From positions 1 through 64,000 of the forward strand of contig JAIESI010000043.1 in the NCBI GenBank assembly GCA_019746135.1: DNA of 64,000 nucleotides, written 5' to 3'. Below the pieces are notes generated by a model. The model was not told where the DNA came from. It was given only the letters and a program-made list of their open reading frames with translations, and did no database searches. The position numbers were made by a program, and so were the translations under genes. Source of the stretch: Xanthobacteraceae bacterium. GTDB taxonomy: Bacteria > Pseudomonadota > Alphaproteobacteria > Rhizobiales > Xanthobacteraceae. Shown piece by piece: positions 34,394 through 34,899 of the stretch. Numbering within the stretch: the stretch's first letter is position 1; the number at the start of each line of letters is the position of its first letter.

Positions 34394-34899
34394 GCGCGCT
34401 CTGCCATCGAAACGATGGGGGCCAATCGCGCCCGATCATTCTGCTTCACGTTGTCAAACAGCGCAGCGGACGTGCTTCATGCCCCGGGGAATTGAATTCG
34501 GGCGCCCGGGCCGGCCCGTTTCCCTTTTTCCGTCCCTCTCGGAAGAGGCGATGGAGCGCCGGGAGGCGCCACCGGCGGATCGCCGCCGGTTGGCGAACCC
34601 AAATCCGGGGTCCGCCGCGCGCCACGGCAGGTCCCCTGTTACCAGGGGTTGCCGCTTCGGGCGCGCTGGCCCAGTGACGTAGGGCCCGGCGCCTCCCGGC
34701 GCTCCAACGCGATGCCAGTTGTCGGGCACCGCACCTTGCTCCGTCTCACAAGCCGCGATCGATCGACGGCGATCTCGACTGAACAGGCATCATGCACATA
34801 TCGTGAACAAGAAGGGAGTCAACCCATCAGCAGGCGCAAACTAGCGACGGCGTTGTAGAGTGCGTTTCACCGGAAAAAGCCCAGAAGGATCAGGCGCGT
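34394..34899 (+). other. Intergenic region with a large inverted-repeat element
   Basis: 506 bp without a supportable gene. It contains the element at 34551-34706 described separately; short ORFs here (34454-34729 minus, 34479-34682 plus, the latter reading MERREAPPADRRR) are translations of that element. The 34710-34899 part is lower in GC and presumably holds the DUF1989 promoter. Confidence 0.55.
34551..34706. repeat. Structured element with perfect 19-bp inverted ends
   Basis: TGGAGCGCCGGGAGGCGCC at 34551-34569 is exactly reverse-complementary to 34688-34706. The 118-bp interior contains further hairpins, ACCGGCGG-ATCG-CCGCCGGT and CCCCTG-TTA-CCAGGGG. This could fold as one multi-branched structure. 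I recognise the ERREAP-coding end from other Bradyrhizobium-group genomes, so it is likely a dispersed repeat. Confidence 0.65.

Follow-up and report, generated by a model that had tools for sequence, protein, structure and literature searches.

Introduction

GOLLD, ROOL, and OLE are long multihelix RNAs that contain a pseudoknot, lack coding capacity, and have a restricted distribution, and their function is not known (PMC12286853). GOLLD and ROOL occur in phages and prophages, where tRNA islands are often close by (PMC12286853). Other repeats with inverted symmetry are smaller. REPs, which are associated with RAYT genes, are given as palindromes of 20 to 40 nt in one account (PMC3733652), and the Br-REP1 and Br-REP2 sequences of Bradyrhizobium are likewise short, dispersed intergenic palindromes (PMC5082802). 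MITEs and other palindromic small mobile sequences are short and multicopy, with no open reading frame (ORF) and with perfect inverted repeats at the element ends. The LexA (SOS) regulon units of alphaproteobacteria carry a direct-repeat box, GTTC-N7-GTTC, which is the alphaproteobacterial LexA motif (PMC3323433); a study of Dinoroseobacter sorted LexA sites into GTTC and GAAC versions (PMC6473078).

Here, we describe an intergenic element in a 64,000-nt stretch of a Xanthobacteraceae genome (the window) that has something in common with each of these systems. Its inverted repeat very probably forms the outer helix of a structured noncoding RNA gene that is multicopy, restricted to one bacterial family, and, to judge from its promoters, SOS linked in this genome. 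It resembles GOLLD, ROOL, and OLE in its multiple helices, pseudoknot, absence of coding capacity, restricted distribution, and unknown function but differs from them in having no match among the Rfam covariance models. With the Br-REPs it shares dispersed intergenic palindromes and the bacterial family, but the published Br-REP consensus sequences differ, and the unit described here is a much larger object of approximately 350 to 600 nt with a promoter, a five-way junction, and a pseudoknot.

An exact inverted repeat encloses four hairpins

The perfect 19-bp inverted repeat on which the original prediction was built is present, with exact arms (TGGAGCGCCGGGAGGCGCC) at positions 34552-34570 and 34688-34706. 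The start (34551) and the separation (118 bp) given for it were each off by one, the spacing being 117 bp, and the match extends to 23 nt at 96% identity. The enclosed sequence folds into a five-way junction consisting of a 20-bp outer stem and four hairpins, where only two interior stems had been noticed before. Predicted folding energies are −126.8 kcal/mol on the plus strand and −135.0 kcal/mol on the minus strand (z = −9.2 and −9.8, respectively), and none of 200 dinucleotide shuffles was equally stable. Across the genome, the arm occurs 36 + 37 times, compared with 2 + 0 times for the reversed pattern, which is well above chance. Every arm in all copies is also a hairpin in itself (GCGCC-GGGA-GGCGC or GCGCC-TCCC-GGCGC). 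As the loops of these arm hairpins are mutually complementary, the long stem could be exchanged for two kissing hairpins.

Organization of the unit on the minus strand

The conserved unit reaches approximately 120 nt past the promoter-side arm and 100 nt past the other arm. It spans 34443-34825 on the minus strand, and in the approximately 40 copies of the genome it is conserved from GGGTTGAC to a TGTTTGA..TGAA tail. At its upstream end lies a −35 region (GGGTTGACTC, 34816-34825) with TTGACT at 34817-34822, separated by 16 bp from a possible −10 element, TATGTG (34795-34800). The LexA-box position (GTTCACGATATGTGC, 34794-34808) has one mismatch to GTTC-N7-GTTC. A 5′ stem-loop (TGTTC...GAGCA, 34737-34785), recognized by sequence comparison and closed by TGCTC/GAGCA in most copies, is followed by the hairpin GCGGTGCC-CGACAACT-GGCATCGC (34709-34732), in which six of eight pairs covary.

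The outer stem is made of a 5′ strand (34688-34706) and a 3′ strand (34552-34570), which are the exact arms and covary across subfamilies. Between them lie the junction hairpins H1 (34668-34687), H2 (34617-34666; long and with an internal stem), H3 (34592-34616), and H4 (34571-34590), all supported by the fold and by covariation in the alignment. Downstream of the outer stem, the alignment places a further hairpin, H5 (34531-34550), and then the A-rich linker GGAAAAAGGGAAA and a 3′ hairpin (34499-34518) with a loop that supplies the 5′ strand of a pseudoknot; the downstream strand of the pseudoknot is CCCCGGGGC (34481-34489). The 3′ module is matched by a covariance model, R1, at 34465-34574 on the minus strand with 61 bits. 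The unit ends with a tail, CTGCGCTGTTTGACAACGTGAAGC (34443-34466), that recurs in many copies; by eye, its TGTTTGA-A--TGAATC pattern is similar to the boxA of rrn antitermination. No intrinsic terminator was identified for the unit.

The other copies follow a common order on this strand. GGGTTGAC and a spacer that varies are followed by a TGCTC/GAGCA-closed hairpin, a second hairpin whose loop is CGACAAY, the outer stem enclosing its four hairpins, and a further hairpin formed by CCCCTC/GAGGGG; next come GGAAAAAGGGAAA, a GC-rich hairpin, and GCGGAGCGTTGGCT, after which TGTTTGA..TGAATC appears in some copies only. Both of these last motifs are degenerate in the window copy. In other copies, a tail of the sequence GGAGCGTTGG could pair with the 3′ arm by way of two G·U pairs.

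Compensatory changes and strand asymmetry point to an RNA

Despite greatly differing interiors, 92 of 101 distinct cores fold into an outer stem with exactly four hairpins. In an alignment of 27 sequences, 88% of the cells pair and 32 pairs have changed on both sides, values that none of 500 shuffles reached, although relatedness inflates such shuffle tests and the A3 helices were derived from RNAalifold. Sliding the partners by one to three columns lowers pairing to 38 to 49%. The outer stem itself covaries among 14 variants of the arm, most of them found in other subfamilies, in an alignment that left out one inserted base in the arm of locus L219 (five pairs; 0/500 shuffles); at position 3 the pair changes among A-U, U-A, and C-G, and at position 10 among G-C, C-G, and A-U. 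The arms seem invariant in the subfamily of the window copy, partly because exact arms were used to collect the loci. In the pseudoknot, complementarity between the 3′-hairpin loop and the strand upstream of GCGGAGCGTTGGCT is greater within sequences than between them, exceeding all 2,000 between-sequence permutations of 41 elements. Compensatory changes, whose absence among copies was to have spoken against an RNA, are thus found in the outer stem, the inner hairpins, and the pseudoknot alike.

The two strands are not equivalent. Of 62 oriented copies, 54 folded better on the promoter-first strand (P = 1.4 × 10−7), and on this strand G·U exceeded A·C in the alignment-defined pairs (128 versus 67 and 150 versus 28). 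Structure prediction in itself favors G·U, which makes comparing the folds of the two strands the cleaner test. Taken with the promoter, this asymmetry suggests that the RNA would be read from the minus strand of the window. A coding function was rejected: single-base indels separate copies in a conserved stretch immediately preceding the outer stem (acaacggca/acaactggca), so that no reading frame is conserved. The structured RNA of the original prediction is strongly supported by compensatory changes, strand asymmetry, a covarying pseudoknot, the promoter, and the syntenic footprint described below.

The element is multicopy and found only in Xanthobacteraceae

The genome of the window (7.74 Mb in 395 contigs) contains the 168-nt core at least 10 times, with five copies identical, and the arm occurrences given above correspond to about 40 elements. 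The flanks of the core are also conserved among copies, but less than the core. The exact arm was found in 54 of 200 genomes of the family (reversed control, 1). In the genome collection, 72 contigs had the two-arm pattern. The titles of these contigs name Rhodoplanes, Pseudolabrys, Pseudorhodoplanes, Afipia, Tardiphaga, Rhodopseudomonas, Bradyrhizobium sp. NFR13, and other Hyphomicrobiales or Xanthobacteraceae, as well as one metagenome-assembled genome (MAG) labeled Marinimicrobia that is probably misbinned. Only 2 of 298 order-level genomes had the two-arm pattern, both of them within the family. Model R1 detected the 3′ module in 76 of 200 family genomes, which represent 28 of 47 genera, and several genomes had at least 19 copies; outside the family, it gave two marginal matches (near E = 5 × 10−4) and none that was convincing. 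As far as sampled, the element occurs in a single GTDB family, the Xanthobacteraceae. The earlier assignment to the Bradyrhizobium group holds at the family level, and the genus is nearest to Rhodoplanes MAGs.

The full element was absent from the phage, plasmid, and viral collections that were searched. A viral, phage, or plasmid origin was accordingly rejected, the viral contigs matching single arms only and the phage and plasmid collections giving no match. In four phage-like contigs (L060, L062, L064, and L068), an isolated arm hairpin, GGGCGCCTCCCGGCGCTCC, immediately precedes an ORF; such single hairpins are probably convergent. The window had no match in Rfam 15, and relaxed thresholds on the repeat interval yielded chance-level matches only. 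In the open-access papers searched, the element is undescribed.

Copies occur among unrelated genes and probably evolve in concert

None of the copies falls within a predicted gene. The neighbors are unrelated housekeeping genes, among which no transposase, reverse transcriptase, or other mobile-element gene recurs, nor does a RAYT family among the neighbors scanned. A riboswitch for the DUF1989 gene adjacent to the window copy was ruled out because the unit points away from that gene and the copies are scattered beside unrelated genes. A tRNA or tmRNA gene was near only 3 of 69 loci (1 of 30 long-form and 2 of 39 mini loci; these forms are described below), which rules out an association with tRNA islands like that of ROOL and GOLLD; from these RNAs the element further differs in its many chromosomal copies per genome.

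Two congeners (G004 and G007) have no element in the interval between DUF3095 and DUF1989 (DUF3095 is 84% and 77% identical, respectively), with flanks too diverged to place the ends of the unit. This unoccupied site indicates that copies are gained or lost. Two weak arm matches in one congener lie outside this interval. One syntenic locus shared by three Tardiphaga/Bradyrhizobium strains shows a conserved footprint that begins at the −35 box, identity being 18% far upstream, 78% in the promoter and 5′ hairpin, 98% in the core, and 100% in the 3′ module.

Within the genome of the window, cores are 99 to 100% identical while the upstream parts are 55 to 72% identical. The types of 5′ flank, core, and 3′ flank are also reshuffled, with L014, L015, and L021 having the same 5′ type but different cores or tails. 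Alike cores, diverged upstream parts, and reshuffled types suggest concerted evolution, through either cassette exchange between arms or gene conversion. The divergence of flanks around cores that evolve in concert makes the element a system for studying cassette homogenization.

Most lineages have a longer form

R1 matches with other arms exposed units in which the CGACAAC loop (34709-34732 hairpin in the window copy) is swapped for a domain of approximately 160 nt. A model of this domain, R2, matched 82 of 150 family genomes and 32 of 47 genera with up to at least 18 matches, seven matches being in the genome of the window; among 299 phylum genomes, it matched none outside the family. In most loci tested, R2 is followed by R1 without a change of strand. 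The 38 distinct R2 sequences have changes on both sides in 31 of 45 pairs (score, 0.476 versus 0.162 for shuffles), in an alignment that was fitted to the model. Ten long-form loci had no Rfam match at the gathering score; weak matches to mir-789, Leu_leader, and SorX fell below it and were taken as chance. A kissing loop between GGGGCTCC and AGGAGCT in the long form was rejected, as its score was reached in 4 of 2,000 permutations and it clashes with the nested fold.

Most lineages carry the longer form. The window locus (L002) has no R2 match, and on sequence comparison, it is a "mini" form of the longer RNA class, with the CGACAAC loop where the long form has the structured domain.

LexA boxes accompany the promoters in one lineage

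In the genome of the window, all 32 complete copies have TTGAC at the matching place, approximately 106 to 132 nt before the core, and 30 of them have a perfect LexA box near the promoter (GTTCN7GTTC in 17 and GAACN7GAAC in 13), at several positions relative to the −35 element. The recA gene of the same genome has the same type of box. Two of four long forms examined in this genome also have one. From this pattern, we infer SOS control of most copies in this genome. Dozens of boxes in both orientations and at varied positions suggest selection for control by DNA damage, which would be unusual for an RNA. In LexA regulon units, the box fronts a repair gene, whereas here it fronts a multicopy noncoding RNA.

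Copies from other genomes mostly lack the box (present in 2 of 82), so SOS control would be lineage specific and not general. Their promoters are instead enriched in TCCTA, CTTATCCCCG (21 copies), and TATATTCC (8 copies). Some (e.g., L072 and L109) contain palindromes such as TATAGTCCTAGGACTATA, which suggest that a different repressor may act in other lineages; another group has AACTTATCCCCGC-N-CTTATNTTC.

Discussion

The nonautonomous element that the original prediction offered beside a structured RNA finds no support in its usual sense. MITEs carry their inverted repeats at the ends, whereas here the repeat is internal, its variants covary, and no duplication or cognate transposase was found in the neighborhoods scanned; copies are nevertheless gained or lost. 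A MITE-like or retro-like element mobilized in trans by a transposase or other enzyme, with the structure serving mobility, might leave some 40 dispersed copies with near-identical cores, copy numbers that differ between genomes, and a window site unoccupied in two congeners, which along with the high copy number also fits a selfish element. We nonetheless consider this unlikely, as the conserved unit runs well past both arms, the arms covary between subfamilies, the neighbors share no transposase or reverse transcriptase, and vertical conservation at one locus starts at the −35 box. The combination of identical cores with promoter regions of 55 to 72% identity also fits cassette homogenization better than recent transposition of whole units.

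The extreme conservation of the arms in the mini subfamily, their nearly palindromic sequence, and the mosaic exchange of cassettes at the arms would also suit a hairpin or cruciform that acts as DNA, as a signal in recombination, replication, or nucleoid organization with no role for RNA. Such a site would hardly be expected to fold better, with G·U over A·C, on one strand, to have its promoter, LexA boxes, and pseudoknot all on that strand, or to have a footprint that includes the −35 box, and we regard it as very improbable. The intergenic location and the prevalence of convergent downstream genes (60 of 95 copies) recall a transcription terminator or a REP-like 3′ repeat that stabilizes mRNA, but the unit, at approximately 350 nt and with a promoter and LexA box of its own, is far more elaborate than either of these and exceeds the 20 to 40 nt of a REP, and no RAYT family recurs among the neighbors scanned. 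Moreover, 25 copies lie between two genes codirectional with the unit and 10 lie between divergent genes, leaving this explanation barely credible.

For a structured RNA gene, we envisage that the unit's own promoter would drive minus-strand transcription of a noncoding RNA and that, in the genome of the window, LexA would repress most copies, which DNA damage would then induce. The RNA would work as a folded structure, either as a scaffold or by binding protein or assembling with itself, and be neither an mRNA nor a transposon end, while exchange of the central cassette between arms would keep copies alike. A scaffold is the most likely guess for its role, if a tentative one. More speculatively, the units may make up a class of large ornate RNAs, found in one bacterial family in tens of chromosomal copies and SOS controlled in this lineage, whose mini form has lost the domain of approximately 160 nt and which may either self-assemble, using the complementarity of the arm hairpins, or act as a scaffold for a DNA-damage complex. 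With tens of copies per genome and hosts in the culturable genera Afipia, Tardiphaga, and Pseudolabrys, this RNA class, absent from Rfam, would be directly testable.

A few loci have peculiarities of their own. In L039 (G002:C82, approximately 1550 onward), the outer arm is broken by what appears to be an insertion sequence. At L046 (G009:C282), past the promoter-side end of the unit, and noticed at this locus only, the start of an ORF resembles a REP-associated tyrosine transposase and lies near a GTAG-type REP. In L027 (G000:C147, approximately 819 to 1128 in the locus), the H1 loop contains an insertion of approximately 180 nt with GCTGT...ACAGC ends, flanked by the repeated 9-mer TGCGTCACT; the insertion is probably a small mobile element whose target was the hairpin.
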